A DNA stretch of 64,000 nt from Lineus longissimus (Eukaryota > Nemertea > Pilidiophora > Heteronemertea > Lineidae): positions 4,094,001-4,158,000 of the forward strand of contig NC_088321.1 in the NCBI RefSeq assembly GCF_910592395.1. Reading direction: 5' to 3'. How positions within the stretch are numbered: the first letter of the stretch is position 1; each line of letters opens with the position of its first letter. The notes beneath the pieces are model-generated. The model was given only the letters and a program-made list of their open reading frames with translations, was not told the DNA's origin and did not search any database. A program made the translations under genes and the position numbers. Positions 25,972-52,611 of this stretch are shown here, in pieces.

Positions 25972-26528
25972 TTATTTAGTGCCGATGGGAAATATTGACA
26001 TGCATCGCAATCTGTTTGCATTCACCTTGAGCGTGATCGGATCTTTGAGTGTTGTATTCATAAAGTCTCTCTCAAGAGGAGGCAAGAGCTTTAAGAAAGA
26101 ACTTGTGATCATCTCCGAGTCCACATTCGCGTCAAACAGGGCACACAATGATGCCTTGCATAGGCTCATTGGGAAGTACCCCAACAACACGTAAGCGTGG
26201 CTGATGATTTTCCCAATGATGGAGAAAACATCAGTGTCCATCACATCATGGTCCACTTTTGGGACCTTAGCATCACTCCCCTCAAAATACTTTGAGAGGG
26301 CAGCCTTGAGAAAACACGTCAACATCTCTCGGGACAAGCCATCCATATCCTCTGCAATGTTTTCTCCTTCGAACGTCACATTGATTCGATGGAAAGTCAG
26401 TTGGCCATCACTCCTATAATAGTCCATCAGGTTTAAGATCGACTCACGGCTGATGAACATGTTCTTCTCCACACCAACTCGAATGAAGGTTTTTATCTCC
26501 ATAGCTGCACTTTGTAGATCTCCAAGAC
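25972..26528 (-). CDS. HECT N-lobe exon
   Basis: The acceptor ATCACTTCAG precedes about 184 codons ending in TAA at 25972. Features typical of the HECT N-lobe are VTFEGENIAEDMDGLSRE and, later, a GKIISHAYVLLGYFP helix. The phase joins correctly with exon 26783-26870. An internal AAG followed by GTGAAT at 26025 could act as a donor to an unseen C-lobe exon. Otherwise the protein ends about half-way through the domain, without the catalytic cysteine. Confidence 0.75.
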
Positions 26529-29500: not shown

Positions 29501-32500
29501 AGAGGTCAAATGAAAAGTTGGTTAATCACTTCTCTGAATATAATGCAATATCTGAAGGACCCCAACAAATTGTTTCTCATTGACAAATCCATGTAGTTCT
29601 CCAACAAGGACTTCACCAAGCCAGTCAACTGGATCAAACAGGGGGCTAAATTTGGCCGAACTAGCTGTCGATACCTATCAAACGGTGTGAAGTACACCAG
29701 TTTTAAGTTCTAGTGTATGTGAAATTCTAAATAATTGATTCCTGATTTCCAGATTCCATCTTTACTGATTTCAGGCTTGCATTGGTCGCGTCCTCTTCTA
29801 ACCTTCACATAAGCAAGCGGTCGATAGCATTTTCAACGTGTACACATTTGGAGGAGCGTTGTTTCAGATTCTGAGGAGTCACACTGGACCAGCCAATCAT
29901 ATCACGATATCTGTTACAATGTACCATGACCTGCCAATCAAACCATGATCAAACCGAGCGGCGGCAAAATTCTTTTGAAGTCTGACCCCGTTTTCTCTTC
30001 GATTGTTATTATCGTGCTTTTGAAGTCTCAGTCAGCGTCTTCTGATTGGTCGCAAACAATTCAGCGCAAAGATTGGACGGGCTCAGCGATTGGTCCTGTC
30101 AGAACGTAGTGAGGAGTAAGCAGACGAAGAATTATGTGAGGAGTTAGGCAGAATTATGTGAGGAGTTAGGCAGAATGATGTGAGGAGTTAGGCAGAATGA
30201 TGTGAGGAGTTAGTCAGAATAATGTGAGGAGTTAGGCAGAATGGCAAATTCATACAGCATTACTAACCTGACGTAGTTCTTCTCCTTGCCCTCCTTTCAG
30301 TGCGTGCAATCTGGAGGTTTAGGCGAGCAACCCTTCTTCAATTGGCCTGAAATTGAACATTTCATAGGGTCAAGAAACTGTGTGGAATAATAGAAATGAA
30401 ACAACACTGGAAAATAATCGCTCGCATATTTCAACCAATTCAATTAGGTCTAATCGCCAACGTTCTTGTCTAATGCAGATATTGGAGGCAGAGAGACCCC
30501 CCCCCCTCTCTACGGGCTGAATCTCTGCGGAGTACATTGCTTGCCTGAAGTCCCTTAGAAACAATTTTCTGATTTGTCACCATACTGAATATCAGACCAA
30601 TCCCACTTTTAAAGGAACCTTCCTCATTAATAATGCCACAACGCTCCGACAACAATAGCTGGTACAGCATTTTGGGTATAGAGGGGTAATAGCTGATAAT
30701 CATGGATTGCATCTTACCTTTTCACCATCTACAATCATACTTTCCATATATTCCATATCTTGAATAACACGAACGTTTTCTGTTGCTGTTCTTGGATGGT
30801 GCTGCAAGGCAAGAAACACGTCTCATCAGAGAAATGTTAAACATTATTCAACTGTTAGTGTTCAGTTCACTCTGTCTGAGTAAACGAAACAATACCAGTC
30901 ATCTTACAAATTGTCTCATCAAGATCACCTCAAGCACATCCTTTAAAGCTGACCAGCATGCTTTCTCAGTGACAAATTGGCCAGAATAAAAACACCAACA
31001 GGTACTTCCTTGACCTTTGGCCCCTGGTGGCCAGAAGGTGAATCATATGAGGTCATTTTCCGTGTCTGAGTAGCGGTCACCAAGGAATGTGTATGTGTAC
31101 CAAGTTTCACGTCAATTGCTTCAGCGGAAATGAAACATGCCACCCATGCCTAACGTTGACGGACGACATTATTTATAGTGTGTCATTGTAAAGGCTCACA
31201 GGTGGGCCAAAAAATGAGGTATTCTCAATTCCATAACTGTTCAGCTATCACAACAGTGTCATCCATCTCTATGTCTGGGCCACCGGCAAAATCTCTCATC
31301 TCCAGCTGAAATAGAGATTTATGCCAAATTTATTTGCTACTGTGCAAAGTCTGCCAGGAAGAAAATGAATCATAGCATCCTGTCAGTGTCATAGAATGAT
31401 CGGATAGAATTATTTAACTTGAACATGTTGAAGATACTGCATGCTTCAGAGATTATCATCAGTAATCAGGATATACACAATACATGTATCATACAATGAT
31501 ACATAGATACTGTGTCTGCGGGTTTAAGCCGGTTTCGGGTCGCCTGTACAAAAGACCTGTTTTACCTGTAATAGGCCTATGTAAAGTGACATACCGAGCA
31601 CCGGCTAAAACTCACAGACACAGTATGTTAGTAATGTGACCTAAGGACATCCTAAAATCTATTTCAAAATGGTTTAGATTGAAATGGTCCATAGATCATG
31701 GGCTTACCTGTGGACCAACTAAATGAAGAGAACAAGACCAACAGACAGTGTTAATATTGACTCATATATTATTATTGCCTACCATAGCCATCTCAACTAG
31801 CAAAGGTGAGGTTCTCATACATGAAGTACATCAGCACATCCATTGTATGTAATACTATGCATCAGAAACAACCTGGTGAGTCATGGTCACTAGAACTGAG
31901 ATTTACGCCTGTAACCAGGTTGGGGACTGATAGTGATACATAGTACTGGTGCTGAAGAAAAACCCCGCTGCACATGTGGTGCTACTTCAGATCATATTCA
32001 GTACACTTATACTCACCACTACTTCGCCTCCAGCTGGAGTGCTAGCAGCAAGGGCCATGGTTGAACTATTAGTATCAGTGAAGAGGGAGCTTGCTTGACG
32101 TCTAGATCTAGATGTCTGACCAGAAGTCGTAGCAGTGGAGATAGAGCTTTCCTGGCGGATAGATGCCCGAGTGGACAACTGAAATATGTTTAAAAGAAAG
32201 AATGATCAGCAGAAAGCATTGTTACAAGTACTGCTCAATGCTGATAGGCCAAGGAAATGTGGCACATGAGGATATAGAAATTCCAGCAGTGCTACTGCAT
32301 ACAGTGAGTACTCATTTGACTTCAAAATCTTCACTCAGTTTTTCTAACCAGGTGTGCTCATCCCACTTACCTCAGAATCAGGTGCATCAACATCTCCACC
32401 AAGATCAGGAAGGAAATCGTCTACCGGTAATTCAGGCCCACTACGTGTCCTTAAAATACAAAAACAAAGTTATTGTTAAAATCAACAAATTATTGGAAAT

Positions 32501-34979: not shown

Positions 34980-35491
34980 CTAAATAAAAAGAGATTCCTA
35001 TAGTTTATTACTCCAAGGCCTAGGCTAGGCCTAAATCCCTAAGAAGCTAAGGCAGTAAGGGTCCCTCTATATACTACTCTGCCTATCCGTCCTGTAAAAA
35101 ACCTGAAATCTTGGCTCTCAGAGTAGGGCGTACGAGTTAGATAATGACATATCATATTGTCAAATTTGATCAAAATTTCAAAACAAAAACTTCGGATTTT
35201 AATTCAAAACTTGATCGATGAGAGGTTGTCCTTAACAGAGAGGTTGTCCTTAATAGAGAGGCTGTCCTTAATAGAGAGGCTGTCCTTAATAGAGAGGGTG
35301 TCCTTAATAGAGATGTTGTCCTAAATAGAGAGGTTGTCCTTAATAGAGAGGTTGTCCTTAATAGAGAGGTTGTCCTTAATAGAGAGGCTGTCCTTAATAG
35401 AGAGGTTGTCCTTAATAGAGAGGTTGTCCTTAATAGAGCGGTGTCCGCTAAGGGAGGTTCCACTGTATTTGTAAATAAATATCATCCCTAC
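34980..35491. other. gap between the HECT-like and kinase genes, with a MITE array
   Basis: Only about 510 bases separate the last kinase exon from the SANT exon. It contains the expanded pogo-like MITE at 35208-35467. No polyadenylation signal for the kinase gene is obvious. Confidence 0.5.
35208..35467 (-). mobile_element. pogo-like MITE with internal 18-bp expansion
   Basis: About 12 copies of GTCCTTAATAGAGAGGTT at 18-bp spacing end in GGAGGTTCCACTGTA, the outer terminus of the family. If the kinase exon is not spliced at 35491, its frame continues into this element and encodes SIKDNL hexapeptide repeats. Confidence 0.85.
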
Positions 35492-35617
35492 CTCTGGTAA
35501 CCGTCGATACATGAGCTCATTGGCAGACGGTCGGTATTCAGGCTCACGTTCTAACATGTCCTTTATCAGGTTCTTGAAATCTTCTGAATAGTTTCCTTTC
35601 ACTGGGGCAAACTGGCC
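35492..35617 (-). CDS. NEK-like kinase, last domain exon
   Basis: 126 nt, phase 0 at both ends, acceptor CACCTTCCAG and donor GTAGGG. It encodes [18 protein letters not shown] through [14 protein letters not shown]. The Arg of RPSANEL is the conserved subdomain XI arginine. Nothing resembling an RCC1 repeat follows within the window. Confidence 0.9.
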
Positions 35618-38600
35618 CTGGAAGGTGAATGAAAATAATTTAACTCCTTCAGTGCCAAGGATTTGAGCATTTTCATCACCGAAATCTCACAAAAATAATT
35701 GTGATACACTCATCGAAATTCTTCAAAACCTTCGTCGTCACCCCTAGTTTCCATAAAACAACAATGATAAGTGGGGGCATATTGGGATTATGCACTAAAA
35801 AGTGGGAGTGGTAATTTTTGGCCTATTTCCACCATTTTTTACCTAAAATGAGGGCTGGCAGACCCCATCTCACTCTCGCAGTTGAACAATCTATTCAATT
35901 AGGACACCCCAGACCAGAGAAACCATATGAAACACATTTGAGTAGCTGGGGACATCTGGTGTTGTTGTGAGGAACTAAAATATCTGTACCTAGTTTCAGC
36001 AAATAGCATCCCGCGAAGTTACTATTTATATCTCACAAGGTCATTCGCATAAGATATTGATGGCGTTTTAGTCACGTGACAGTCGGACATCGACACTTAT
36101 TTCAACGCATTTGAGCTTATTTCAAAGTCAATTATCTTTGACCCTGCATTGTTTTTAGCATGAATGATACCATAGAGTCAGAGAGAGAAATATTCAGAAC
36201 AATTATGTAGTATTTCCAACACTCAGACATGTGCCATATTGAATCTAACTGCCCTAGTTAGAAAGCCTGAATCCATTACGAAACCGCATGTTTGTCCGAC
36301 ATTGCCTGTAATTCAGCGATGGGGAAATAGAGGGCAGCAGCTGCAGTGACGTCATCTTCGCGGAATGCTATTTTCCTGAACCACCAGTAAACTTGAACAG
36401 TGAACCCCTTTAAATTTCTTACCTTCATAATTTTATTGACCAAGGCGGGCAGATTCGATCCCTCGAACGTCTTCTGTAAACAAGCCATTTCATACAGAAT
36501 GCAGCCGAGTGCCCAGATGTCTGACTTACCATTGTACTCCTTGCCTTCGCACTGTAATAGAACAAAATGATAACAAAACTACCTGATCCGAGTCACCAGG
36601 TCGCACGACATGATTTTCTCCGGCCTGAAAGCTCGAGACGGCAGGTCACGTGCTTTCAGGCTGGAGAGGATCATCGAGTGCGATCTGGATGACAAGGATC
36701 AGCCACGAGTGAAGTTTTTTAAAATCATATACCACACATCGCAAAAAATATCAAGAAAATGACAATTGTAAAGGCAATTTTTTTTTCATTTTTCACCAAA
36801 CATTTCTCTTGAAGACATGACTATCTTTTGAGTTGAATGGAGAGCTCTCTATTAGCACTTTCTGATGGTACCATTAGTAAACCTATCGACATCCCCATTC
36901 TTTGGAAAACTCTCAACGAGCACTTTCTAATGGTACCATTTGACATAACCATTCACAGGAAAGCTCTCAGCGAGCCCTTTATGGTACCATTTGTAAACCT
37001 ATTGACATGACCATTCTTTGGAAAGCTTTCAATGAATACTTTTTTGCAGTACCATTTGTAAACCAGTTGACATGACCATTGATTCGAATGCTCTCAATGA
37101 GCACTTTCTGATGGTACAATTTGTTAACCTATTGAGATGACCATTCCTTGGAATGCTCTCAATGAGCACTTGCTGATGGTACCATTTCTAAACCTATTGG
37201 CATGACCATTCACTGGAAAGCTCACAATAAGCCCTTTCTTATGGTACCATTGTAAACCTATTGACATGACCATTCATTGGAAAGCTCACAATGAGCCCTT
37301 TCTTATGGTACCATTGTAAACCTACTGACATGACCATTCTTTGGAAACCTCTCCATAAGCACCTTCTGATGGTACCATTTCTAAACCTATTGACATGACC
37401 ATTCATTGGAAAGCTCACAATGAGCACTTTCTTATGGTACCATTGTAAACCTATTGACATGACCATTCATTGGAAAGCCCTCAATGAGCCCTTTCTTATG
37501 GTACCATATCTAAACCTACTGACATGACCATTCATTGGAAAGCTCTCAATGAGCACTTTCTATTTAGAGACTCACCATTTCGGGGCTGATATAATAAGGC
37601 GTTCCCATCACTGTATTCGCTCCTTTATCAGCAGTTGACATTATCTTTGAGATTCCAAAGTCGCCGACTTTAACAACGCCCTCTTTTGTCAGGAAGATGT
37701 TGGCCGTTTTCATATCCCTGGAGAAATTATCAAAATCATTTTTTTTAGTAGGAGAAGTTACTCAATAAAATGCAGACCGACACTAACGAAATCAACAACT
37801 TTCCTGAAAAGAAGGAAATAAAAGAGTGGAAATATCAATGTCTGTCCAATTTGTCCGATTATCAAAAAATGTCCGTGGTCAACTACCAGTTTACTTTTCA
37901 CCATTTACTTGCCTGAATGTCCGGAATATCATATCAAAATTTCAGATTCACAACCCCATGCAGTATTTGATGCGTCGCGGTCAAACATTGACAATTTTAC
38001 TGCTAAAAGGCTTAAAGTGATACTATGATGTGATTTTCAACTTTGCGGAAATACGTCCGTTTTTAATTGTTGATCACAAATGCGAAGCTCAAATTTTCCA
38101 TTTTTGATTAGATTTTATATTATAAAATCGCTGTTTTATTTTAATCGCGTCAGACTGGCCAACTGCCGAAGACGTTTTGAAAAACCCACACTAAGTCACG
38201 TGACCTCATGACATCACAACATGAACAAGTCAGACTGTCGAATATTTCCCTATTCGCTCTAGGAAGAAGCTATATCCGCAGTAGTTCGCGTACGCTCAGG
38301 AAAATCTACGTCTATCAATCCCTTAGGCCTAAAAGCATCTAATACAAACTGTGTGAGCTTTGGCCATGCATGCACCTGCAGCAGAGACACAAGAGCAAAA
38401 GGGCCTGGGTTTAATCCTGGGGAGAGCCCAGGATTGTATTTCAGGATGAACCGGCGTGGCTTTCGAGGAACGTAAATTCCTGGTTCTTCACAGTCCATCG
38501 AATGAGATGTTAAACCAAGGTTCCTTGTATCTGATGTCTATGCCAGGGCAGGTTAAATACCCCACCAAGTGAGAAACATGAGTAGCTTGCGTGGACTCTA

Positions 38601-41600
38601 CCTGTGGCCGAAGTCGATTCACTAGACAAATAACTCAATTGGTGCATAACCATAGTGGCACACATAAACGCTCATCCTGCCTCGGAGGAGGAATACTCCC
38701 TGTAGAAAATCACCTGCAAGGGCAGAGTGAATGCTGAAGAGGAAGAAGAAGGGACAACACTCGACCGCCGATAGGGAGATCGGTGTTTTTCTGGTGTATT
38801 ACGCTGGCAAAAATGCCCAGTTAGGTGGCACTGTCTTAACCTTGTTGGTCCGACACATTCAAAACAGTCAGGGAGGACACTAAATGTGGCCCACCACGGC
38901 AAAATGGGTCGCATGTCTCACAGAAGATGAGCCTAAAATGACACCAGGACATAAGAGTCACGTCCACTACATAAAACGCCAGTGTTGGTACGGAGTTTTT
39001 GCGCTTACACCTGTTAATTTTCCCCTGGAAAACGCCAGTGCTAGAAAACGCCGGTGTTTTCTTGTCACGACGATGGATTCAGGGCTAAATGGGGGCTAAT
39101 TTAAGCACGGCGTTTTATGTAGTGTAATCACAAAAACGCCGGCGTTAGTAAGTTTCTACACTCGGCGACAGGCGGCGTGGTTACCACTGCGCATTTTGTG
39201 TCGGTCAATCGCGACTCCAACAATAACAAAAAATCGGAGAGTTCTACAGGAATTTCATATAGACCATGCCATCTGTCGCCGTGTTCAATAACTGCTTCCA
39301 TGTAGTGGAAGTCCTCACCGTGTCTTCTCCGGGCTTTTTCTGGTTCGGAGTATCCCCGGGGTTTAAAAACGCCGGGGTTTTCCATGTTGTGGACGTACTA
39401 CTATTATAGAAGAAATCGATTTCACATAAGGCAGACAATAGTGAAATGAACAACCAGTCCGTCTCAACCTGTCAAGCTCGAAGCGACATGCGACTCATTT
39501 TGCTGTGGTGGGCCACAAATACTAAAATAGATCACAGATACACTGGCAAAATTTGGCGAGTAAAATTTATATAAATTTTATATAAAATTCGACTTCTCTA
39601 AATTTTATATATAGAAAACTTTGCAGAGACTACCTGTGTAGTATGTTATGTTCGTGAATGTGACGAATGGCTGCCACCATCTGTTGGAAGATTTCTAGTA
39701 TTTCCTTCTCGTCCAGTGGAGCGTCCCTATGAGAGAGGTATTGAGCTAGCGTCCTGGAAAAAGGAATCGAGGAAAATAAAAAATTGCAACTTTTTACATG
39801 AGCATAGCGCTTTATAATGCAGAACAGCCTCAAAGCACTTTATATTATCTACAGAACATAGATATATTAATGATAATGATATTAATCATGAGACTTATAT
39901 AGCGCTAAATCTAACTGGTTTCAGTCGCTCAAAGCGCTTCACATTATTATCCCTAACAGTCTCAGAGCACTTTATATTTTTTACAGAACATAGAGAATAA
40001 TAATGATAATAATCATGAGACTTATATAGCGCTTAATCTAACTGGTTTCAGTCGCTCAAAGCGCTTCACATTATTATCCCTAACAGTCTCAGAGCACTTT
40101 ATATTTTTTACAGAACATAGAGAATAATAATGATAATAATCATGAGACTTATATAGCGCTTAATCTAACTGGTTTCAGTCGCTCAAAGCGCTTCACATTA
40201 TTACCCCTAGCTATCGGCCTGAACATTTTTGTTTCAAGCTCGACTCTCTGGGAGTATCACAGGTCCGAGCTGCAGCTTTACAGCACTCTAGACTAACATT
40301 CATAGTGGGCCATCTCTGCCAGCTAGGTACCCATCTACTCCTGGGTGAAGAGAAGCAAGTGAGGTAAAGTGCCTTGCTCAAGGACACAAAGGCGAAAGAT
40401 AATCTTTAGAAAAAAATAAGTTCAGGGTTTTCATGACAAGTCAATCTGTAAACAATTTTGGAACGAGATGCGAGTTGACTTTGTCGATGATTAAAGGCCT
40501 ACGCGGTTCGTAAAAGAATTTGAATTTGTAATTGAATTTGAAAACTTTAATTGCGTAAATACATACTGAATATAAATTTCAACACTGCCGTTGTGTAGAC
40601 TGATGTACAAATACAGTGGAACCTCCCTTAGCGGACACCTCTCTATTAAGGACAACCTCTCTATTAAGGACAACCTCTCTATTTAGGACAACCTCTCTAT
40701 TAAGGACAACCTCTCTATTAAGGACACTAGTTCTGGTCCCAAATTGGTTGTTTCCATTCGATTTGACCTCTCTAATCGGGACACCTCTCTTTTAAGGATA
40801 ACATTTGTCAGTCCCAATGGTGTCCTTTAAAACTGATAGGTTCTACTGTGCTACTCTAAAGTGAAAAGTGAAAAGTGACTGGGCAGCCGACAGCTTGGTA
40901 ATATTGCCATTGCCATAGGACAGCACTTGTCAGTCCCATGGGTGTCCTTAATAGAGTGGTTCTACTGTAACTTACCCTCCATTTGCATACTCCATTTCAA
41001 TCATCAAGACGCCGTCTTCTATTAAGGACAACCTCTCTATTAAGGACACTAGTTTTGGTTCCAAATTGGCTGTTTCCATTGAAGTTGACCTCTCTAATCA
41101 GGACACCTCTTTATTAAGGACAGCTCTTGTCAGTCCCATGGGTGTCCTCAATAGAGTGGTTCTACAGTAACTTACCCTCCATTTGCATACTCCATTTCAA
41201 TCATCAGGACGCCGTCTTCTTCAAAACTATCGTAATAACTGATGATGTTCGGGTGGTCTAAGACGGCGAGAACTTTCACCTGAAAAGACGAGATCGTGTC
41301 AAAAATCAGACGACTTGCCTGAAGTATCTGAAAATACAGGTAAGTACAGTAGAACCTCCCTTAGCGGACACCTCTCTATAAAGGACACCCTCTCTATTAT
41401 ATCAGAAATTGCACGACTTGTCTAAAGTACAGTAGAACCTCTCTATTGAGGACATCCTCTCTATTATATCAGAAATTGCACACCTTGCCTAAAGTACAGT
41501 AGAACCTCTCTATTGAGGACACCTCTCCACAAAGGACACCCTCTCTATTATATCAGAAATTGCACACCTTGCCTAAAGTACAGTAGAACCTCGCTATTGA

Positions 41601-44600
41601 GGACACCCTCGGGACTGACAAGTGCTGTCCTTATTAGAGAGCTGTCCTGATTAGAGAGGTCAAATTGAATGCTCACAACCAATTCTCGACCAAAAGTAGT
41701 GTCCTATATAGAGAGGTTGTCCTTAATGGAGAGGTGTCCGCTAAGCAAGGTTCCACTGTATGTGAAAATAAGTAACAAAATGGTTTAAATGAAATAAGCA
41801 CAAATTTGACATTTTTCAATATTTGGCTGAAAATGGGTCTTTTTCACACTTTGTCCAATTCTCACAAAGTAAGTAAAATATTGAGGTGAGAGCCAAGCGT
41901 CAACTAGGACTCTATCAGATCTATTATAAACAATATTGGGTAATGTTTTCATGTAAGTAGGAGGAAACCTACGATATTGAAGAAGACACTCTGTTTCTGA
42001 GTGTACCCGTACGGAATGGTAATTGAACCTGGGACGTCAGAGGTGACAGGCGCTGTTGTTTCCACTGCGCCACTCTGACGGCCGCAGCAAAGTGAGTAGT
42101 TTTAGATATTTTTGACTTAAAGGTGTACGCCGTTCGTAATTACTGGTGGTCTAAGAAAATAGAAATGCAGTGATACACAATGCCGGAGTGCCGTTATTAT
42201 GCATGCAAATTTGTTGAAACTTGGTATTTATAGTATTTGTATATCAGTCTATGCAATGGCAATGCAGAAATTTTCAATAAGCCCACATTGACGCAACTGG
42301 AAATTTTCAAATTCATATTCAAATTTCACTTTTTTTACAAACCTACGTAGGCCTTTAATAATAATATTTTGTTCAACATGTTCAATTGCTGAATTTTCCG
42401 CATGAAATCTCCAGCGCCATTTTTTTCATGAAATAGACAGAAGACAACAACGCCGGGGATATCACTGTACATTTCTTTACGACTCTCACCTCGTTAAGAG
42501 CAAGTTGTCTCTCTGCTGCATTCAAGTCGTGCATGTTGATTTCTTTGAGTATGACCAGGGAGTCGTCGTCACGTTTCCGGTAGAGGACGGCCGCACCATA
42601 TGCCCCTAGAAGAAATTAACAGTTAATAATAACTAAACGTATTTATAGTGCCAAAATCTACCTGAAGTGATCAATGACACTTTACAATTACTTACTTACT
42701 TACTTTTTTGTACAATAAGTTAATAGAATAAGTCTAATGCCTGTAGCGATGAAAGAGGAAGGTTTTAAAGGGAAGCTATGGGAATGATTCCCCATTCGAC
42801 CAACAGTTACATGAAAGAGGAAGGTTTTAAAGGGAAGCTATGCGAATGATTCCCCATTCGACCAACAGTTACATGAAAGAGGAAGGTTTTAAAGGGAAGC
42901 TATGGAAGGTTTTAAAGGGAAGCTATGGGAATGATTCCCCATTCGACCAACAGTTACATGAAAGAGGAAGGTTTTAAAGGGAAGCTATGGAAGGTTTTAA
43001 AGGGAAGCTATGGGAATGATTCCCCATTCGACCAACAGTTACATGAAAGAGGAAGGTTTTAAAGGGAAGCTATGGAAGGTTTTAAAGGGAAGATATGGGA
43101 ATGATTCCCCATTCGACCAACAGTTACATGAAAGAGGAAGGTTTTAAAGGGAAGCTATGGGAATGATTCCCTATTCGACCAACAGTTACATGAAAGAGGA
43201 AGGTTTTAAAGGGAAGCTATGGGAATGATTCCCTATTCGACCAACAGTTACATGAAAGAGGAAGGTTTTAAAGGGAAGCTATGGGAATGATTCCCTATTC
43301 GACCAACAGTTACATGAAAGAGGAAGGTTTTAAAGGGAAGCTATGGGAATGATTCCCCATTCGACCAACAGCTACAACCTTAACATCTACGTAAACTGCG
43401 TATTCTTAAAAACAACTGTGGCTCTTGGTTTTATAAATAAACAAACATTAATGAGTGAAATGGATGATTTTAATTGCTTATTTTTGAATCAAGTATGCCG
43501 CCATCTTGGTGGATTTTAATCTGCTCTCTCCTCCATACGGAGAGCCAATGACGTCATTCATGCAGCCATTGTGACAATCAGCTGTTCGAACAATGGCGAA
43601 TGCTTGGAATGACAGATGACAGTTCTTCGATTTCTTCGGGTTCTTCGTCGACGTCCGGTGATGAATCCTTCGATTACAACCGTGCATCAGCAGAAGAACG
43701 AGCAGGTCTAGTTCCCTATGCGTTTGAGCCAAGGACCGGGGTAGAAAAAGGTCTGGAAACTTAGTGGAAACGAGTAGTACTCGCCTTGATGAAAAAACCC
43801 CACTGCATCCATGACGTCATTCGCCCGGGAGATTTGAACAAACATGGCAACCCCCGCAAACTGCTTATCAAATGCAATTTTCTGCACTATCTAGGAATAT
43901 TCATCACATCCTTGGTGTAGAGTATTTGTTTGTCATGTAACTTGGTATGTATTTGTTAAAAAAAATATTATTTTGCTGCATCAATTTATTCCCATAGCTT
44001 CCCTTTAAGGCTGTTCTTGAAGACCGGGATGCTGTCATTTTCCCGTATAGGACGCGGACGGCCATTCCAAAGTTTTGGAGCAGTGCAAGAAAAAGCCCGG
44101 CTCCAAAATTAACCGACCTGCTTCTTGGTCGCGACAGCAGTAGGCCACTTGCAGAACGAAGTTGCCGCCTCGGCTGATAAAAAAAAAATCAATGAAGGAG
44201 CTAAAATAATCAGGGCCAGAGTTGTTGAGACACTCGAAAACAAGCAAAAGCACCTTAACCCTTTAACTGCCGAATATATTTTTCATAATTTTCAAACTTT
44301 CCAATGACCTGTTTTGAAAAGACTGCAGCTTGAAACGGAGAAGAGTTCCATTCCTCGAAACCGCCATCGACACGATCACCTGCACGCCATCTATCAGTAG
44401 GTGGGAAAACTGCGTAGTTTTTGTTGAGGCAGGTGTTAAGAATTTCCTAACAAGGCCGATGTTTTTATTATTAATTAATGAGGGTCTGTCGGATGAGACA
44501 AAAAGTTGTACCTGAGTGTCTTAGCCAGGACAAGTAAAAGATCCCACATACATGTAGGTGGACAGTAGCATACAGTAGTCTAGTCAAGCTAGCTCATTTT

Positions 44601-47600
44601 GGACCTTAACCGGAAACAAATTGCAACAGAAATTATTCCACTGGCACTGCCATTCATTCAGGGAATGAATAATTATTAAAAGAGTTATGTCGCAATGTGG
44701 CAGAATGTATGGTGATCGCACTGATGACCGCAATGTGGCAGAATGTATGGTGATCACACTGATGACGACCTAGGTCGCAATGTGGCAGAATGTATAGTGA
44801 TCGCACTCATGACGACCTAGGTTGCGATGTGGCAGAATGTATGGTGATCGCACTGATGACGACCTAGGTTGCGATGTGGCAGAATGTTTGGTGATCGCAC
44901 TGATGATGATCTCGGTCGCAATGTGGCAGAATGTATGGTGGTCGCACTGATGATGACCTAGGTCACAATGTGGTTGAAAGTATGGTAAGTCAAGTAATGG
45001 GTAATTGAAAGCCATGGCTTCCAAAACTCAAAGATGCTTGATTGAACTCGGGGAGCTAGAATCTTCACAAATACACACCCAACAAATGATATTGCAACTC
45101 TGTGACCAATTAATATACTTTCAGTTTTGAAGTATCCAGTTGTGCAGTGAGTGACCGGCGTATTAAGAGCCTGATTTACCCACCTTTCCCAACGGTTCTG
45201 ATCTTCTCAAAGCCGGCCATTGACTGCTGGTAATGTCCGCTCCATCCACGGAGACACTCAAGACGGAAGTAGAGCTCCCCAACCGTACTGGAAAAAAGTC
45301 CATAAGATTTAGTTCCGTGGATTTTTAGAATTACACCAAGCAGGTTGTCCGTAATAGAGAGGTGTCCACTAAGAGAGGTTCTACTGCAGTAGAATCTCTC
45401 TATTAAGGACACCCTAAGGACTGACAAGTGCTGATCTTAATAGAGAGGTGTCCTGGTTAGAGAGGTCAAATTGAATGGCAACAACCAATTTGGGACCAAA
45501 ACTAGTGTCCTTAATAGAGAGGTTGTCCTTAATAGAGAGGCATCACTAAGGGAGGTTCTACTATATGCTTAAATTTACCATTCATGTTCTCACCTTTTTG
45601 AGGACGGGTCTTTGACCAGCTCTGCTCCGACAATGTCTCGAGACAAACCAACCGACACCTGAGGAAGAAAAGTCGACAATGAAGACCTGAAAAACCCGAC
45701 ATTTTTTTCAGACATTACGTTATTCAGCCCCTGACCTCGCAGTTAATAATAAAATTCAGGGGTCATACTAAATAGCGTCCACCAGGTTTAAAAGCATATG
45801 TGACCCGTTCCAGCAAAACCAGTCGCATGTCGCTCTGAGCTTGGCAGGTTGAAACAGACTGTTTGTTCATTTCACGATTGTCTGCCTTTTGTGAAATCTG
45901 ACGACATCAATTTCTTCTATTATCTCCTGGTGTCATCTAGGCTCATCTTATGTGCGACATGCGACTGGTTTTGCTAGAACAGGTCACATATTTAAAGCCA
46001 TCAAGATAAAATCTAATATTCATAAACGAAATAAGCAGGACATTTTCTGATCGTTTCATGACATTTGTGTGCTAGATTAACGAGTTGTTGCCTAAAATGT
46101 ACCAGTGTCCATTGGTCACCCAGTCGGTGGCCTTGTTGGATTTGACTTGGAGGAAATGATAGGGCTTCCCAATACTACAGGGGCTTTGTGATTTTAGACA
46201 ACATCTCCCTTATTCTACACCCAAATGTCATGAAATTTTCAGGAAATGTGTTCTATGGTGTACTTATAGTTATACCATTTATGGCTTCTAAATTTTATTT
46301 TGATGACTTGATACCCAACTTTAAACCTGGTGGACGCTGTTTAGGATGACCGGAATTCAGGCCTAGCCCAATACATGGTCTATTGTCTTTAAACAAAGTC
46401 CGTTTGGACCTTGGCCTAAATTCCCATTGTTCTATTGACTTATCAAAGGGTTTAAAGGACAAATCATGATCACATAGACCCCAAGAAACAGCTTTCATGG
46501 AGGTTGATACGCTTAAACACGAAAATGCAAATAAAGGTATATGGGGACCCTCACCCCCTTATTTGGGGGTAGGGGATGTTCATTGCCCCGTTTACAGTAG
46601 TGAACTTCCGGTAATTGAAACACAGTGGAACATCTCTAAGCGGACACCTCTGTAATTAGGACACCCTCTCTAAGACACTGATTTTGGTCCCAAATTGGTC
46701 ATTTTCACCTCTGTTATCAGGTCACTTCTCTATACTTCCTGAGTCATCTTCGTCCCTAGTGCTGGGACATAAGGCCTTCACCTCTCTATAAAGCACATCG
46801 ACTCTCAGCCCCAAGGGTGTCCTTAACCTCCTGAATCCCGGTACCGACCAGTCGGTCATTTTGAAATACATTTTTTTTCCAACGACCGACAGGTCGGTCT
46901 CAGTGATATTTTATTCCCTTGAGCTGAGACGCTAGTTTATTGCTTGTTTTAGCGTGTATGATGTAGAGTAGGGTCAGTTAGAGCATGCCTGGGTAGATGG
47001 CGCCTCGGTACTAGACTTTGGCGGTTGTATGCGGGTGCTATACATCGTGAAAGTCAGACACAATTTCGCAACCACGTGACCACCCTGGGATCCCGGGATT
47101 TTCAAGTTCTGGGATTCAAGAGGTTAATAGAGCGGTTCTAAAGTACCTGCATGGTTACTTACCCCCAGAAGAGCCTCCAGCTCCTTGACGATGCCCTGTC
47201 CGCCATCTTGTCCCTGAGCGGCGTTACATGCCAAGAAGTCGAGGCGGAGGTTCGCTGCCTCCTTGTTGCCATGGAGACTGAAGAGTTTGGAGAAGAAGCC
47301 ACGAATACCTGCGTGGTCAAGGACGGTATCTTTATTGAGCGGCTGTAAATTTAGAGATTCAAAATTGAACATGGAAGACGGAAGTGTAGAACCTTTTTTA
47401 GCCACATCATTTTCAATGTTGTCAGGCCAAGCTGGCTACCCAGTGGACTGGTTATCACTGGCGATGGTAGCCACTGAACCAGTTCATTGTTAAGGTCAGG
47501 TCAGTGCAGGGTTGTTGCTGAACCTTTTTTTAGCGGCATCATTTTCAATGTTGTCAGACCAAGCTGGCTACCCAGTGGACTGGTTATCACTGGCAATGGT

Positions 47601-50600
47601 AGCCACTGAACCAGTTCATTGTTAAGGTCAGGTCAGTGCAGGGTCGTTGCTGAACCTTTTTTAGCCACATCATTTTCAATGTTGTCAGACCAAGCCGGCC
47701 ACCCAGTGGACTGGTTATCACTGGCGGTGGTAGCCACTGAACCAGTTCAATGTTAAGGTCAGGTCAGTGCAGGGTTGTTGCTGAACCTTTTTTAGCCACA
47801 TCATTTTCAATGTTGTCAGACCAAGCTGGCTACCGAGTCGACTGGTTATCACTGGCGATGGTAGCCACTGAACCAGTTCACCGTTAAGGTCAGGTCAGTG
47901 CAGGGTTGTTGCTGAACCTTTTTTAGCTGCATCATTTTCAATGTTGTCAGACCAAGCTGGCTACCCAGTGGACTAGTTATCACTGGCGGTGGTAGCCACT
48001 GAACCAGTTCACCGTTAAGGTCAGGTCAGTGCAGGGTTGTTGCTGAACCTTTTTTAGCTGAATCATTTTCAATGTTGTCAGACCAAGCTGGCTACCCAGT
48101 GGACTGGTTATCACTGGCGGTGGTAGCCACTGAACCAGTTCACCGTTAAGGTCAGGTCAGTGCAGGGTTGTTGCTGAACCTTTTTTAGCTGCATCATTTT
48201 CAATGTTGTCAGACCAAGCTGGCTACCCAGTGGACTGGTTATCACTGGCGATGGTAGCCACTGAACCAGTTCACCGTTAAGGTCAGGTCAGTGCAGGGTC
48301 ATTGCTGAACCTTTTTTAGCCACATCATTCGAAATATTGCCCAAAATAAACGTGCTACCTTTTGGAATTGACAATATGCATTAGTTAGTTAAAATGAAAA
48401 ATTAATGATATCATATTGTAGGTATGATTGTTAGCTTCAAAATAAATATCACTTGTAGTACTTCATTTTCAACTTTTTTTAGCCCGGCTATTTATCATAG
48501 TAAGTAGCCCCGAATGACCTACCTTTTCCTCTTTCCCACACAACTGTATCACGCCCAACGGGCTATTTATGCTATTTATCATAGTAAGTAGCCCCGAATG
48601 ACCTACCTTTTCCTCTTTCCCACACAACTGTATCACGCCCACCGGGCTATTTATGCTATTTATCATAGTAAGTAGCCCCGAATGACCTACCTTTTCCTCT
48701 TTCCCACACAACTGTATCACGCCCACCGGGCTATTTATGCTATTTATCATAGTAAGTAGCCCCGAATAACCTACCTTTTCCTCTTTCCCACACAACTGTA
48801 TCACGCCCACCGGGCTATTTATGCTATTTATCATAGTAAGTAGCCCCGAATGACCTACCTTTTCCTCTTTCCCACACAACTGTATCACGCCCACCGGGCT
48901 ATTTATGCTATTTATCATAGTAAGTAGCCCCGAATAACCAACCTTTTCCTCTTTCCCACACAACTGTTTCACGCCCACCGGGCTATTTATGCTATTTATC
49001 ATAGTAAGTAGCCCCGAATGACCTACCTTTTCCTCTTTCCCACACAACTTTATCACGCCCACCGGGCTATTTATGCTATTTATCATAGTAAGTAGCTCCG
49101 AATGACCTACCTTTTCCTCTTTCCCACACAACTGTATCATGCCCACCGGGCTATTTATGCTATTTATCATAGTAAGTAGCTCCAAATGACCTACCTTTTC
49201 CTCTTTCCCACACAACTGTATCACGTCCACCGGGTTATTTATGCTATTTATCATAGTAAGTAGCCCCGAATAACCTACCTTTTCCTCTTTCCCACACAAC
49301 TGTATCCCGCCCACCGGGTTATTTATGCTATTTATCATAGTAAGTAGCTCCGAATAACCTACCTTTTCCTCTTTCCCACACAACTGTACGACGCCCACCG
49401 GGCTATTTATGCTATTTATCATAGTAAGTAGCCCCGAATAACCTACCTTTTCCTCTTTCCCACACAACTGTATCACGCCCAACGGGCTATTTATGCTATT
49501 TATCATAGTAAGTAGCTTCGAATGACCTACCTTTTCCTCTTTCCCACACAACTGTATCACGCCCACCGGGCTATTTATGCTATTTATCATAGTAAGTAGC
49601 CCCGAATGACCTACCTTTTCCTCTTTCCCACACAACTGTATCACGCCCACCGGGCTATTTATGCTATTTATCATAGTAAGTAGCCCCGAACGACCTACCT
49701 TTTCCTCTTTCCCACACAACTGTATCACGCCCTACGGGCTATTTATGCTATTTATCATAGTAAGTAGCTTCGAATGACCTACCTTTTCCTCTTTCCCACA
49801 CAACTGTATCACGCCCACCGGGCTATTTATGCTATTTATCATAGTAAGTAGCCCCGAATGACCTACCTTTTCCTCTTTCCCACACAACTGTATCACGCCC
49901 ACCGGGTTATTTATGCTATTTATCATAGTAAGTAGCCCCGAATAACCTACCTTTTCCTCTTTCCCACACAACTGTATCACGCCCACCGGGCTATTTATGC
50001 TATTTATCATAGTAAGTAGCCCCGAATGACCTACCTTTTCCTCTTTCCCACACAACTGTATCACGCCCATCAGGCTATTTATGCTATTTATCATAGTAAG
50101 TAGCTCCGAACGACCTACCTTTTCCTCTTTCCCACACAACTTTATCACGCCCACCGGGCTATTTATGCTATTTATCATAGTAAGTAGCCCCGAATGACCT
50201 ACCTATTCCTCTTTCCCACAGAACTGTATCACGCCCACCGGGCTATTTATGCCATTGATCATAGTAAGTAGCCCCGAATAACCTACCTTTTCCTCTTTCC
50301 CACACAACTGTATCCGACCCCACCGGGCTATTTATGCTATTTATCATAGTAAGTAGCCTCGAATGACCTACCTTTTCCTCTTTCCCACACAACTGTATCA
50401 CGCCCACCGGGCCATGGAGAACTAAGGCAACACTGTGAAACTTCTTATTGAGCAGGAATTGGCCTATTAAACCTGAAAGAGAAGGGAGCTGAGGTTAACA
50501 TGTGTTTTGAATACTTTGTACATTTTGGGGATTCTTTTTCCTGCTGTTTTGTATGACGTCATTTCCTTTGATACATCATCATGTCGCCGTCTTTGTGGTT

Positions 50601-52611
50601 ATTTCCGTTACGTATTTCGGTTGGGTTAACGCCATTTTTAGAATCATTCGCAGACGTCAGTCCTGTTTTCCTTTATAACATGAAAATCGCACTCTTAGGT
50701 ATGATTACAGTAGAACCTCTCTATTAAGAACACCCTTGGGACTGCAAAGTACTGTCCTTAATAAAGAGGTGTCCTGATTAGAGAGGTCAAATTGAATGGA
50801 AACAGCCAATTTGGGACCAAAACTAGTGTCCTTAATAGAGAGGTGTCCACTGTACTTTCCTTTCAATTTCTCTTTGATTTGTTGGTAATGCTAATCCGCA
50901 ATACCATATTTATTTCATTGCCTCATGTCTGTATATTTGTTTTTGCAGAACGTGTTTTTATCATAATAAATCAAGAACGTTTACTCTTTCACTGCCAATA
51001 ACGTTTTAAAACGTTACTGAAAATATGTCGCTAAATTGCCAATAACGTTTCAGAACGTTATCTCAGTGTTTCCATCTACTCATCAAAAAGTAAACCAAAC
51101 TATTGATTCTATGTTGATTTAAAGTAAACCTCCCGCCATGTCTTCGGAAGTGTTCTCGGAAGGATTCAGTTCAATCTCGTCCCCAGGAAGTGGGTATTTC
51201 GAGTCAGGTGAATTGGTGAAAATAGACCAATTTAGCCCCCTCCCCCCCAAATCCTCATCCTTCTGACTCTCAATAAGTCCTTCTGAGACTGTTATCTCGA
51301 GGCGATGGAGTGGAACCCCGAAACCATCTCGAGTCCTTCCGACACCTATAGTGGTGCGCTAATCTCAACCATCATTACCCTTCCTTTTCATGCTATTGCT
51401 AATTCCAACCATGACACTTCCCTCTCATAGAGCTATCTCTAACCATGACGATGTCTCGAACTTATATTGCAAAAATGTCACTTGAGGCAGTAGGGCATTC
51501 TGTAGAGACATAATGTTCTTCGTTTACTTCAAAGTACAGTAGAACCTCCCTTAGCAGACACCTCTCTTATTAAGGACAACCTCTCTATTAAGGACACTAG
51601 TTTTGGTCTCAAATTGGTTGTTTCCATTCAAGTTGACCTCTCTAATCAGGACACTTCTATTAAGGACAGCACTTGTCAGTCCCGAGGGTGTCCTTAGTAG
51701 TGAGGTTCTACTGTCATGAGTTTTTGGTGCCTAACCTACCTATCAAACCATCAAAAGTCGATGTCTCGAACTTATATTGCAAAAACGTCACTTGAGGCAG
51801 TAGGGCATTCTGTAGAGACATAATGTTCTTTATCTTACTCGAAACCACCAGTAACCGCGGTGGAAAATCGGCGCGGCTTCCCTGACGATCGTACTTCAGC
51901 GACCGCGATCGCGATAACACAACCTCGGCATGCTCATTATCATAAATGCCCTGATCGCTATGCTGTCCGTTGGAATCGCTGCGCTGACGACGTGGGCTCA
52001 CAAACACCGCCCCGCCATCAGAATAACTCCTTGTGTGTTCCTTGACTAACTTTTCTTTCTGATTTCTCGCCGCAGTCTGTCCGCTTACAGGACGCTCTTT
52101 GCCAATATTTTCCGAGTCCGGCTCAGACTTATTTTTTCCGTGTTCCGTATTCGTCGGATTATTGCCACTCTTACGATCCGCGCTGTTCTGCCGTTCAATC
52201 TCTCCCTGTGCGGATATTCGTGCGTCGGTCCGCCTCCGCTTCCCGACCGAGTCTCTCGTGTTCCTGAGTCGTTTCGTCGCGGGCATTGTCCACGTCCTGA
52301 TCACCACTCGTGCAGTCACCCGCCCCATTCCTTGGCACCTCCTCCTCAGGATTCCTCCGAGTCCGACCTTTCTTCTCACCACTACCGACTGAATCCACCG
52401 CTTTCTCGCACTTTGAAATCGGCTCACTCCCCGCCTCCTTTGATTTCACCCGCTCCGTTTTTCCTCGATTTTCCGAATACCCACTTTCACCGTCTTTGAC
52501 GTTAACTCTGGAACCACTGGAATGCCCATGTCTTCGCTTCTTCTCTTTTGATCTATTCTAAAATTGCTCTGGTGGTCCAGGCCCACCTGTAACATCCCTG
52601 GAGTCTGCCAT
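35492..52611 (-). CDS. NEK-family kinase with N-terminal DUF4347 / clan-CD-like domain, gene span
   Basis: Twelve minus-strand exons, all with GT-AG boundaries and consistent phase. Order: a disordered charged region (51839-52611), a domain with a VALVLHG block and an LDFLACN block across exons 50372, 47163 and 45594, then a complete kinase domain (45184 down to 35492). Kinase motifs: GKGAYG glycine loop, VILKE lysine, NE of helix C, HRDMKTAN catalytic loop, [11 protein letters not shown] and a SDIWALG helix [13 protein letters not shown] and RPSANEL resemble NEK8/NEK9. NEK kinases act at centrosomes, cilia and mitosis. No RCC1 repeats follow, unlike NEK8/NEK9. The His-Gly and Ala-Cys pair, about 54 residues apart, fits DUF4347 and caspase/CHAT-like folds. 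Exon 1 has a frame problem, so the gene may be an imperfect allele or carry assembly errors. Confidence 0.85.
35618..36422. other. kinase intron
   Basis: Non-coding, AT-rich; no repeat array or complete inverted-repeat element recognised. Confidence 0.5.
36423..36551 (-). CDS. NEK-like kinase exon, subdomains VIII-X
   Basis: 129 nt, phase 0, acceptor TTCTATTACAG and donor GTAAGA. It encodes [20 protein letters not shown] and a tail with [15 protein letters not shown]. The NLPALV stretch is typical of NEK8-type kinases. Confidence 0.95.
36583..36703. mobile_element. 121-bp hairpin element in a kinase intron
   Basis: CTGATCCGAGTCACCAGGTC at the left is largely mirrored by the right end, and CCGGCCTGAAAGC is mirrored by GCTTTCAGGCTGG in the centre. 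Arms are about 50 bases with mismatches. Confidence 0.7.
36830..37565. repeat. ~65-bp tandem array, about 11 copies
   Basis: The unit joins ATGGTACCATTTGTAAACC, ATTGACATGACCATTC and GGAAAGCTCTCAATGAGC. Copies are moderately diverged. It abuts the donor of kinase exon 37576-37717, with only about 10 bases between. Confidence 0.95.
37576..37717 (-). CDS. NEK-like kinase exon, catalytic loop to activation segment
   Basis: 142 nt, acceptor AATTTCTCCAG and donor GTGAGT. It completes the HRD motif and encodes [23 protein letters not shown] and [10 protein letters not shown]. Catalytic Asp, the Lys two residues later, Asn and the DFG Asp are all present, so the kinase should be active. Confidence 0.95.
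37815..38030 (-). repeat. dispersed repeat, inverted copy of 2630-2870
   Basis: Shares TTGACCGCGACGCATCAAAT and the CCGGACATTC and GGTGAAAAGTAAACTGG blocks (on the minus strand) with 2690-2810. The match ends at a poly-A-rich stretch. Confidence 0.75.
38370..38755 (+). mobile_element. tRNA-derived SINE, copy A
   Basis: The decayed B box GGGTTTAATCC is followed by the body TGAACCGGCGTGGCTTTCGA, CCAAGTGAGAAACATGAGTA and GGAGGAGGAATACTCCC, ending in a GAAGAAGAAG tail. The same body occurs at 57053-57590 and 58005-58650. Confidence 0.8.
39634..39753 (-). CDS. NEK-like kinase exon, subdomains V-VI
   Basis: 120 nt, acceptor CCTTTTTCCAG and donor GTAGTC. It encodes [20 protein letters not shown] and ends in HIHEHNILH, with the HRD Arg split at the junction. 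Phase 2 at both ends, consistent with its neighbours. Confidence 0.95.
39880..40390 (+). repeat. widespread TATATAGCGCTTAA interspersed repeat with internal 123-bp duplication
   Basis: The block ACTTATATAGCGCTTAATCT to GCTCAAAGCGCTTCACATTA occurs 2.6 times at about 123-bp spacing. It is followed once by GTACCCATCTACTCCTGGGT and AAGTGCCTTGCTCAAGGACA. From memory, sequences of this type are scattered in many marine animal genomes. Its transposon class is unclear to me. Confidence 0.65.
40491..40610 (+). repeat. fragment of a TTAAAGGCCTACGC MITE family
   Basis: Begins TTAAAGGCCTACGCGGTTCG, resembling the left terminus of the complete element at 42121-42355, then diverges. Its right end has been replaced by the adjacent pogo-like MITE. 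Confidence 0.5.
40613..40857 (+). mobile_element. pogo-like MITE (CAGTGGAACCTCC family)
   Basis: Left terminus TACAGTGGAACCTCCCTTAG, several CTCTCTATTAAGGACAAC modules, the central CAAATTGGTTGTTTCC block and right terminus AGGTTCTACTG. TA-flanked termini of this form suggest the Tc1/mariner-pogo group. The module number varies between copies. Confidence 0.8.
40970..41169. repeat. 200-bp unit duplicating a kinase splice donor with MITE sequence
   Basis: 40970-41021 is a near-exact copy of the donor edge of exon 41176-41279 (GTAAGT plus the last about 46 exon bases). It is then joined in a CTTCT/CTCT micro-overlap to the middle of a pogo-like MITE that runs to 41167. The repeat period is 200 bp. 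The exon copy lacks an acceptor and is truncated. Confidence 0.85.
41176..41279 (-). CDS. NEK-like kinase exon, subdomains III-V
   Basis: 104 nt, acceptor GTCTTTTCAG and donor GTAAGT. It encodes [19 protein letters not shown] and MIEMEYANG, covering strand 4, strand 5 and the hinge. Exit phase 2 fits 39634-39753. Confidence 0.95.
41340..41762 (+). mobile_element. pogo-like MITE cluster with tandemly copied intron flank
   Basis: TACAGTAGAACCTC(T/C)CT begins four times between 41345 and 41590. It is separated by ATATCAGAAATTGCAC(A/G) and CTTGCCTAAAG, which derive from the unique intron sequence just before the first copy. A last, full internal part ends at GGTTCCACTGTA. Confidence 0.75.
41763..42489. 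other. kinase intron with a TTAA-flanked MITE
   Basis: Mostly unique AT-rich DNA. The complete element at 42121-42355 is annotated separately. Confidence 0.5.
42121..42355. mobile_element. 235-bp MITE flanked by TTAA
   Basis: Left end AGGTGTACGCCGTTCGTAAT, right end (complement) AGGCCTACGTAGGTTTGTAA, with TTAA immediately outside both. TTAA duplication is shared by piggyBac and Kolobok-type transposons. Related termini occur at 40491 and 52800/53912. Confidence 0.7.
42490..42605 (-). CDS. NEK-like kinase exon, glycine loop to helix C
   Basis: 116 nt, acceptor TTTCTTCTAG and donor GTGAGA. It encodes [20 protein letters not shown] and ends ERQLALNE, supplying the ATP-anchoring Lys and the helix C Glu. 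It resembles NEK9 in this region. Confidence 0.95.
42745..43375. repeat. 63-bp tandem array spanning the element's left boundary
   Basis: The unit joins the external flank GAAAGAGGAAGGTTTTAA to the element's own end AGGGAAGCTATGGGAATGAT and CCATTCGACCAACAGTTAC. About nine copies, three of which carry an extra 24-bp internal repeat. Amplification therefore happened after insertion, across the host-element junction. Confidence 0.9.
42769..44004. mobile_element. ~1.24-kb TTAA-flanked element with AGGGAAGC termini
   Basis: Both ends read AGGGAAGCTATGGGAA inwards and are directly flanked by TTAA (42765-42768 and 44005-44008). Kolobok elements combine TTAA duplications with RGGG ends, so this is a likely non-autonomous Kolobok-type insertion. 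The interior has a minus-strand open frame of 84 codons without known motifs. The left terminus is tandemly amplified. Confidence 0.75.
44009..45183. other. kinase intron with unclassified dispersed repeat and a tandem array
   Basis: 44010-44420 contains GGACGGCCATTCCAAAGTTT and similar blocks that look like a fragment of a larger dispersed element. I cannot name it. A tandem array follows at 44695. Confidence 0.4.
44695..45000. repeat. ~47-bp tandem array, about 6 copies
   Basis: The unit is GCAATGTGGCAGAATGTATG, GTGATCGCACTGATGACG and ACCTAGGT. The first copies are shorter. Non-coding. Confidence 0.85.
45184..45287 (-). CDS. linker and kinase N-terminal exon
   Basis: 104 nt, acceptor CTTTTTTCCAG and donor GTGGGT. 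It encodes [19 protein letters not shown], then [16 protein letters not shown], the start of the kinase domain. It joins the protease-like region to the kinase in one continuous frame, which argues for a genuine fusion protein. Confidence 0.9.
45340..45567. mobile_element. pogo-like MITE pair
   Basis: A short fragment ending AGAGAGGTTCTACTG is followed immediately by a full copy, CAGTAGAATCTCTCTATTAA to GAGGTTCTACTATA. The central CAATTTGGGACCAAAACTAG block is present. Confidence 0.75.
45594..45658 (-). CDS. clan-CD-like domain exon, C-terminal part
   Basis: 65 nt, acceptor TTCTTCCTCAG and donor GTGAGA. It encodes [20 protein letters not shown]. The [11 protein letters not shown] strand and turn corresponds to the DUF4347 segment VAASTDATG that follows its Gly-Cys block. 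Confidence 0.85.
45778..46342. mobile_element. ~565-bp inverted-repeat element with a nested insertion
   Basis: AGCGTCCACCAGGTTTAAA at the left is mirrored by TTTAAACCTGGTGGACGCT at the right. The right half also matches 54784-54970 in inverted orientation, confirming a family. The TGTGACC element at 45800-45989 sits inside its left part. Confidence 0.75.
45800..45989. mobile_element. 190-bp TGTGACC palindromic MITE
   Basis: TGTGACCCGTTCCAGCAAAA and CCAGTCGCATGTCGC are mirrored at the right end by GCGACATGCGACTGG and TTTTGCTAGAACAGGTCACA. TA flanks both sides. Fragments of the family lie at 7208, 16440 and 39460. Confidence 0.85.
46622..47143. mobile_element. pogo-like MITE split by a TTAA-element
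   Basis: The left part starts CAGTGGAACATCTCTAAGCG and continues to GGGTGTCCTTAA. The expected TAGAG and GGTTCTA continuation resumes at 47128 after a 297-bp insertion. Confidence 0.75.
46827..47123. mobile_element. 297-bp TTAA-inserted MITE nested in a pogo-like MITE
   Basis: Ends CCTCCTGAATCCCGG and (complement) CCTCTTGAATCCCAG are inverted repeats. TTAA at 46823 and at 47124 duplicates the TTAA of the host MITE motif TCCTTAATAGAG. Because the host sequence is known, the target duplication is directly demonstrated. Confidence 0.9.
47163..47342 (-). CDS. clan-CD-like domain exon with Ala-Cys block
   Basis: 180 nt, exactly 60 codons, phase 0 at both ends, acceptor AAATTTACAG and donor GTAAGT. 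It includes [16 protein letters not shown] and [16 protein letters not shown], then [13 protein letters not shown]. The hydrophobic strand ending in Ala-Cys-Asn and the following Gly-rich turn and helix match the Cys block of DUF4347-like and CHAT/caspase-like folds. Whether it has peptidase activity is unknown. Confidence 0.9.
47389..48345. repeat. 131-bp tandem array, about 7.3 copies
   Basis: GAACCTTTTTTAGC(C/T/G) starts recur at 130-132-bp spacing eight times (47389, 47520, 47652, 47783 and on). The first unit begins 47 bases from the acceptor of exon 47163-47342, so the array seems to have grown from the 3' end of this intron. Confidence 0.95.
48480..50371. repeat. 84-bp tandem array of a kinase-gene 5' splice site, ~22 copies
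   Basis: On the minus strand each unit contains the last about 40 bases of exon 50372-50472 (CGGTGGGCGTGATACAG and GGGAAAGAGGAAAAG) followed by GTAGGT and 38 intron bases. Because 84 is divisible by three, the exon's frame stays open through most units, giving a 28-residue repeat with [13 protein letters not shown]. The unit nearest the exon has a one-base insertion, and a few units carry stops. It is most simply an intronic minisatellite, with alternative-donor potential. Confidence 0.9.
50372..50472 (-). CDS. clan-CD-like domain exon with His-Gly block
   Basis: 101 nt, acceptor TCTCTTTCAG and donor GTAGGT. Entry phase 1 fits exon 51839. It encodes [20 protein letters not shown] and [13 protein letters not shown]. 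The strand VALVLHG followed by G-x-IQL matches the DUF4347 pattern (strand, His-Gly, Pro-Gly, LQLG). The donor edge has been amplified into the adjoining 84-bp array. Confidence 0.9.
50707..50855. mobile_element. pogo-like MITE
   Basis: TACAGTAGAACCTCTCTATT to AGAGAGGTGTCCACTGTA, with the central CAATTTGGGACCAAAACTAG block. Confidence 0.8.
51535..51714. mobile_element. pogo-like MITE
   Basis: TACAGTAGAACCTCCCTTAG to GTGAGGTTCTACTGT. Flanked by directly repeated intron sequence, see 51449-51838. Confidence 0.85.
51839..52611 (-). CDS. first coding exon of the kinase gene, frame disturbed
   Basis: ATG at 52611 in the context CAACATGGCAGAC. The sequence [17 protein letters not shown] meets an in-frame TAG at 52558-52560 and then continues in the same frame as plausible disordered, Lys/Glu-rich protein to about 52210. 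From there the natural-looking frame is another one (with [18 protein letters not shown] and [18 protein letters not shown]), running to FPPRLLVVS at the donor GTAAGA. The stop plus frame switch mean a sequencing error, a disabled allele or a wrong start. The end of the exon fits the next exon in phase. Confidence 0.65.

Follow-up and report, generated by a model that had tools for sequence, protein, structure and literature searches.

We analysed a 64,000-nucleotide stretch of the Lineus longissimus genome (NC_088321.1, positions 4,094,001 to 4,158,000; hereafter the window), which carries on its minus strand LOC135499040, a gene for which RefSeq predicts an 839-residue protein (P0006) in this nemertean. 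Re-deriving the splice sites and phases from the DNA gave 11 minus-strand exons running from 52328 down to 35492, rather than the twelve counted in a preliminary description of the window made from its letters. The product of these 11 exons is P0006 residues 1–592, and joining 17 exons, as far as the stop codon at 31227–31225, reproduces the entire 839-residue protein. The DNA itself therefore encodes a DUF4347 domain (PF14252) fused to a complete NEK-type kinase, with identical joints in an independent gene model, confirming that the pairing of the two in the window gene is real; the in-phase fusion proposed earlier holds on splice sites, phases and identity to P0006 alike. The same order, DUF4347 directly before the kinase, recurs widely among animals in their predicted proteins, with sponges and sharks among the carriers.

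The preliminary description had already named the upstream domain DUF4347, and we agree with this assignment: against a Pfam gathering cut-off of 24.6 bits, PF14252 scores 29.7 bits on a 630-residue product of the window copy and 33.7 bits on the trimmed domain. The first exon had earlier been ended at a donor at 51839, but the true first donor follows 51740. Both donors leave the same phase, the longer exon supplying helix 1 and strand 2 of DUF4347, and all four L. longissimus models recovered in our protein search (P0001, P0002, P0005 and P0006, with four gene numbers on one contig) keep the 33 extra residues. The junction 51839/50472 was rejected because it drops these 33 domain residues, is absent from the four models and takes PF14252 below the cut-off (22.0 bits for the resulting 425-residue version, in which the kinase is also shortened). 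A start at ATG 52611 was rejected as well, on account of a TAG at codon 18 (52560–52558) and a frame shift near 52210 relative to P0001, P0002 and P0005; the RefSeq protein of the window copy begins at 52328. The kinase has its glycine loop, HRD and DFG, as first described, and among solved structures NEK1, NEK2 and NEK7 are closest to it in sequence. NCBIfam, run on seven proteins, returned kinase families and a few weak stray matches and no DUF4347-like family; PADLOC returned single-member matches only, and a PDB sequence search using just the window domain found nothing.

To place the fusion among animals, we searched proteins with residues 85–520 of a Saccoglossus protein (domain plus kinase), obtaining 970 matches, of which the best 120 were listed, all of 0.55 to 1.75 times the query length. 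PF14252 stands in the precomputed annotation of 17 of these 120, including the sponges Dysidea and Geodia, horseshoe crabs, the prawn Macrobrachium, Saccoglossus itself and the entry Nk52, which we take to be an ichthyosporean; automatic annotation has thus already recorded the architecture in some members. More than 60 residues precede the kinase in 105 of the 120, and among 49 full proteins picked from the same set we found PF14252 at E 0.1 or better in 26 and RCC1 in 40. When a profile built from 31 trimmed domains (Lineus and the nematode Plectus left out) was run on these N-termini, it matched 70 of the 73 outside its training set at E <1e-3, the exceptions being P0073, P0108 and P0105, while the best E value in a shuffled-sequence control was 0.91. 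Two named Caenorhabditis NEKL-1 proteins matched the profile weakly (P0117, 2.6e-4; P0120, 3.9e-4). With the Saccoglossus domain alone, a protein search that needs shared 5-letter words returned only the query itself. The fusion is broader than first thought and not a one-off: where no described animal protein with this layout had been known to the earlier reader, many predicted animal proteins share it, and where the gene had been contrasted with RCC1-bearing kinases, relatives such as Saccoglossus P0003 combine DUF4347, kinase and RCC1. A limited search of the DUF4347 literature, covering excerpts of it, brought up nothing linking DUF4347 to NEK kinases or ECT2L.

The L. longissimus copies depart from this layout after the kinase. 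The RCC1 family was not found in P0006, nor RCC1 in the window by tblastn with four RCC1 halves (best E 1.6), and the window copy does not carry RCC1 after the kinase as NEK8/NEK9-type proteins do; its C-terminal exons gave no Pfam family above the cut-off. P0005 and P0006 are 96.7% identical across 666 aligned columns, P0002 is without the Cys exon and P0001 stops inside the kinase. Past the kinase, P0002, P0005 and P0006 all run into common non-RCC1 exons (KMSTTPQQRKIYKF). No RCC1-bearing Lineus protein occurs among the best 120 of 970 matches, a list restricted by protein length, so that an RCC1-bearing Lineus gene beyond this range would be missed. With other exons standing where the RCC1 half would be, the window copy has probably changed partners or is heading for decay.

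Table 1. Exons of LOC135499040 in window coordinates
Feature	Coordinates	Strand	Basis
First coding exon: low-complexity N-terminus, then DUF4347 strand 1, helix 1, strand 2 (LLVVSS...FDGLIG)	51740..52328	-	Splice sites and phase; identity to P0006; PF14252
DUF4347 exon with candidate His codon CAT 50416-50414 (VALVLHG)	50372..50472	-	Splice sites and phase
DUF4347 exon with candidate Cys codon TGT 47228-47226 (LDFLACNAA); missing from paralog model P0002	47163..47342	-	Splice sites and phase; paralog comparison
DUF4347 exon	45594..45658	-	Splice sites and phase
Single exon holding the DUF4347 end (GELYF) and the kinase start	45184..45287	-	Splice sites and phase; profile match
Kinase exon: remainder of glycine loop, VILK lysine	42490..42605	-	Splice sites and phase
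Kinase exon	41176..41279	-	Splice sites and phase
Kinase exon	39634..39753	-	Splice sites and phase
Kinase exon: DMKTAN of HRDMKTAN, and DFG	37576..37717	-	Splice sites and phase
Kinase exon	36423..36551	-	Splice sites and phase
Final kinase exon	35492..35617	-	Splice sites and phase; Pkinase profile matched to position 258/263
First C-terminal exon of the RefSeq model (KMSTTPQQRKIYKF..), at the RCC1 place of relatives; own in-frame ATG 34976	34726..34979	-	RefSeq model; paralogs
Other C-terminal exons: 34409-34353, 33083-32973, 32449-32371, 32178-32017, 31305-31225 (stop codon included)	31225..34409	-	Joined product equals P0006

Several introns of the gene hold repeats. An 84-bp unit that takes in the 3′ end of the His exon and its splice donor (gtaggt) is repeated about 23 times over positions 48487–50412, on through the following intron; many decoy donors lie next to the single used one. 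The first coding exon has a partial duplicate at 51443–51520, and the kinase exon at 41279–41176 has one at 40975–41061 with a donor-like end. Further intronic tandem arrays occupy 47389–48329 (period 131 bp), 42749–43376 (period 62 to 147 bp), 36838–37561 (period 65 to 193 bp) and 33438–34288 (period 77 bp), and short repeat units of the GAGAGGTTGTCCTTAATA kind occur in several introns, for example at 35220–35446 and 40633–40726. Downstream on the same strand, a 192-residue open frame at 25975–26550 has no Pfam match; by eye we take it to resemble a HECT-like C-terminal piece.

The preliminary description had further proposed a protease-like or sensor domain, of DUF4347 or clan CD kind, with a candidate His-Cys pair. 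In a predicted model the domain is compact and Rossmann-like, with the candidate His and Cys just past strands 3 and 4, respectively; clan CD peptidases carry their His and Cys likewise after the third and fourth strands. To this extent the clan CD idea has partial support, and caspases and one CHAT protein do appear among the fold matches, but they are level with reductases, thioesterases and generic Rossmann folds. In the profile search that had been suggested as a check, run on 33 members, neither C14 nor CHAT is among the 21 families matched at E ≤1, by a method that is insensitive to remote kin, and the only peptidase-type matches are single weak ones to C23 (0.034) and C80 (0.18). Fold searches with a 518-residue model of P0001 were set aside as uninformative on the domain, all matches in the PDB, VIA and viral libraries being to the kinase N-lobe; this model holds the N-lobe only, with a pTM of 0.54, and so does not settle the contact between domain and kinase.

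To follow the candidate pair across the family, we aligned 90 rows, comprising the window copy and 89 of the listed 120 proteins with ≥150 residues before the kinase (P0001 and P0002 left out, isoforms entering as separate rows). The His and Cys occur together in 13 of the 90, three of these being the window copy, P0005 and P0006; once Lineus and gapped rows are excluded, 49 of 84 rows have the His, 19 the Cys, 10 both and 26 neither, which does not bear out the protease reading as a general rule. Both residues are kept in the window copy, Saccoglossus, Patiria, Limulus, Darwinula, two sponges, one shark, Plectus, Daktulosphaira and one further entry. A kinase-only tree made from 70 rows by a quick method, with poor support for 25 of its 67 inner branches and with gaps scored as absence, requires no fewer than 13 changes in the state of the His and nine in that of the Cys. 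The best-kept columns lie elsewhere (Y164, D111, F92, V139 and F165), and what is kept comprises residues of the domain core, the R-x-D of strand 4 and a Y-F just before the kinase. Judged by conservation, the picture is of a retained fold with an apparently dispensable pair.

Together, we think it probable that these proteins form an ancient DUF4347-kinase-RCC1 family of NEKs in which the domain is mostly a regulatory or docking module and not a protease, as suggested by candidate protease residues that are usually not kept together. The window gene would be one of several near-identical L. longissimus genes derived from an ancient NEK8/9-like NIMA-related kinase with the ancestral layout DUF4347-kinase-RCC1. 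Its own kinase has the visible catalytic motifs. The domain, whose fold would be common to bacterial DUF4347 proteins, may be placed against the kinase N-lobe and bind something, the kinase thereby being regulated or positioned; in most lineages it would work through binding and not proteolysis. The near-invariant Y-F adjoining the kinase fits a fixed interface of this kind, as far as an alignment can indicate. Several observations weigh against this reading. PF14252 misses 23 of the 49 full proteins and 7 of the 33 members, and the 73 untrained rows include isoforms and near relatives of sequences used in training. Family names of the relatives, such as Nek8-like, are automatic, and reference NEK8 and NEK9 lie outside the comparison set. 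With the domain alone, Foldseek found no solved structure below E 0.001, the best being Tce1 at E 1.7e-3 and TM 0.58. The scattered keepers of both residues also fit an ancestral pair followed by many losses.

This last point bears on two unlikely alternatives in which the pair is catalytic. That the domain joined to the kinase is an active cysteine protease of clan-CD type, cutting for example the kinase itself or a substrate, is improbable given that one or both residues are missing in most rows, that C14 and CHAT are absent from the 21 families matched for 33 members while C23 and C80 have single weak matches, that caspase and CHAT rows do not rise above those of unrelated enzymes in the fold search and that ECT2L, which carries the same domain, has neither residue at the aligned places. 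Since the keepers are scattered, an active ancestor still has room, and we give it a similarly small chance: the ancestor would have been a protease-kinase fusion whose His-Cys pair cut itself or a partner and so switched the kinase, as the keepers (the nemertean, two sponges, a hemichordate, a sea star and a horseshoe crab) would still do, most others having turned it into a dead docking domain. If so, the domain of ECT2L would be a second dead descendant.

For the window copy itself, it is possible, if doubtful, that the gene is a decaying duplicate making no functional protein, the family being functional elsewhere. The TAG at codon 18 and the first-exon frame shift relative to P0001, P0002 and P0005 would fit such decay, as would the missing RCC1, C-terminal exons with an ATG of their own and the presence on one contig of four or more gene numbers whose products are nearly identical; against it, the frame is open from 52328 through all exons, the kinase motifs are intact and identity to P0005 is as high as given above. 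That gene prediction has joined two neighbouring genes is highly improbable for the DUF4347-kinase joint, which falls within one exon (45287–45184) and is met again in proteins predicted from many phyla, a conservation that speaks against artefact there; a false join of this sort may exist at 35492/34979, where the C-terminal exons attach. NEK8 and NEK9 function at cilia and centrosomes, and discussion of how they are controlled usually centres on the kinase and RCC1; a widely kept front domain, common to ECT2L and bacterial proteins, would offer a handle on the control or placement of such kinases. DUF4347 would gain a testable setting in animal cells, and the candidate catalytic pair, lost here and there across the family, provides a natural experiment in the change from enzyme to scaffold.

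Among known systems, the best fold match to the domain is Tce1 of Pseudomonas aeruginosa (PDB 9qpe), which was not recovered by sequence searches with the window domain or with a 33-row profile of the NEK domains. According to an excerpt of one paper, PA0256 contains DUF4347 and is treated as a putative type VI effector (PMC8262886). Tce1 presumably is PA0256 or carries DUF4347 itself, and the bacterial DUF4347 proteins sit in a secretion setting, unlike the NEK fusion. Caspase and CHAT peptidases resemble the domain in the placement of the candidate His and Cys in the predicted model; their fold match is tied with unrelated Rossmann folds, the pair is rarely kept and no C14 or CHAT profile match was obtained for the 33 members. 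The 33-row profile picked out one solved chain below E 0.1, namely 11xu_A1, residues 289–456 of ECT2L (epithelial cell-transforming sequence 2 oncogene-like, PDB 11xu), at E 1.2e-14, and this segment alone matches PF14252 at E 8e-17, with neither candidate residue at the aligned places; the remainder of ECT2L we take to be F-box and DH. Close parallels are Nek8-like proteins such as P0003 of Saccoglossus kowalevskii and P0016 of Limulus polyphemus, which place the same domain ahead of the same kinase (P0003 shows 40% identity across 98% of a 190-residue query) and differ in that RCC1 repeats follow the kinase, where none were found in the window copy.
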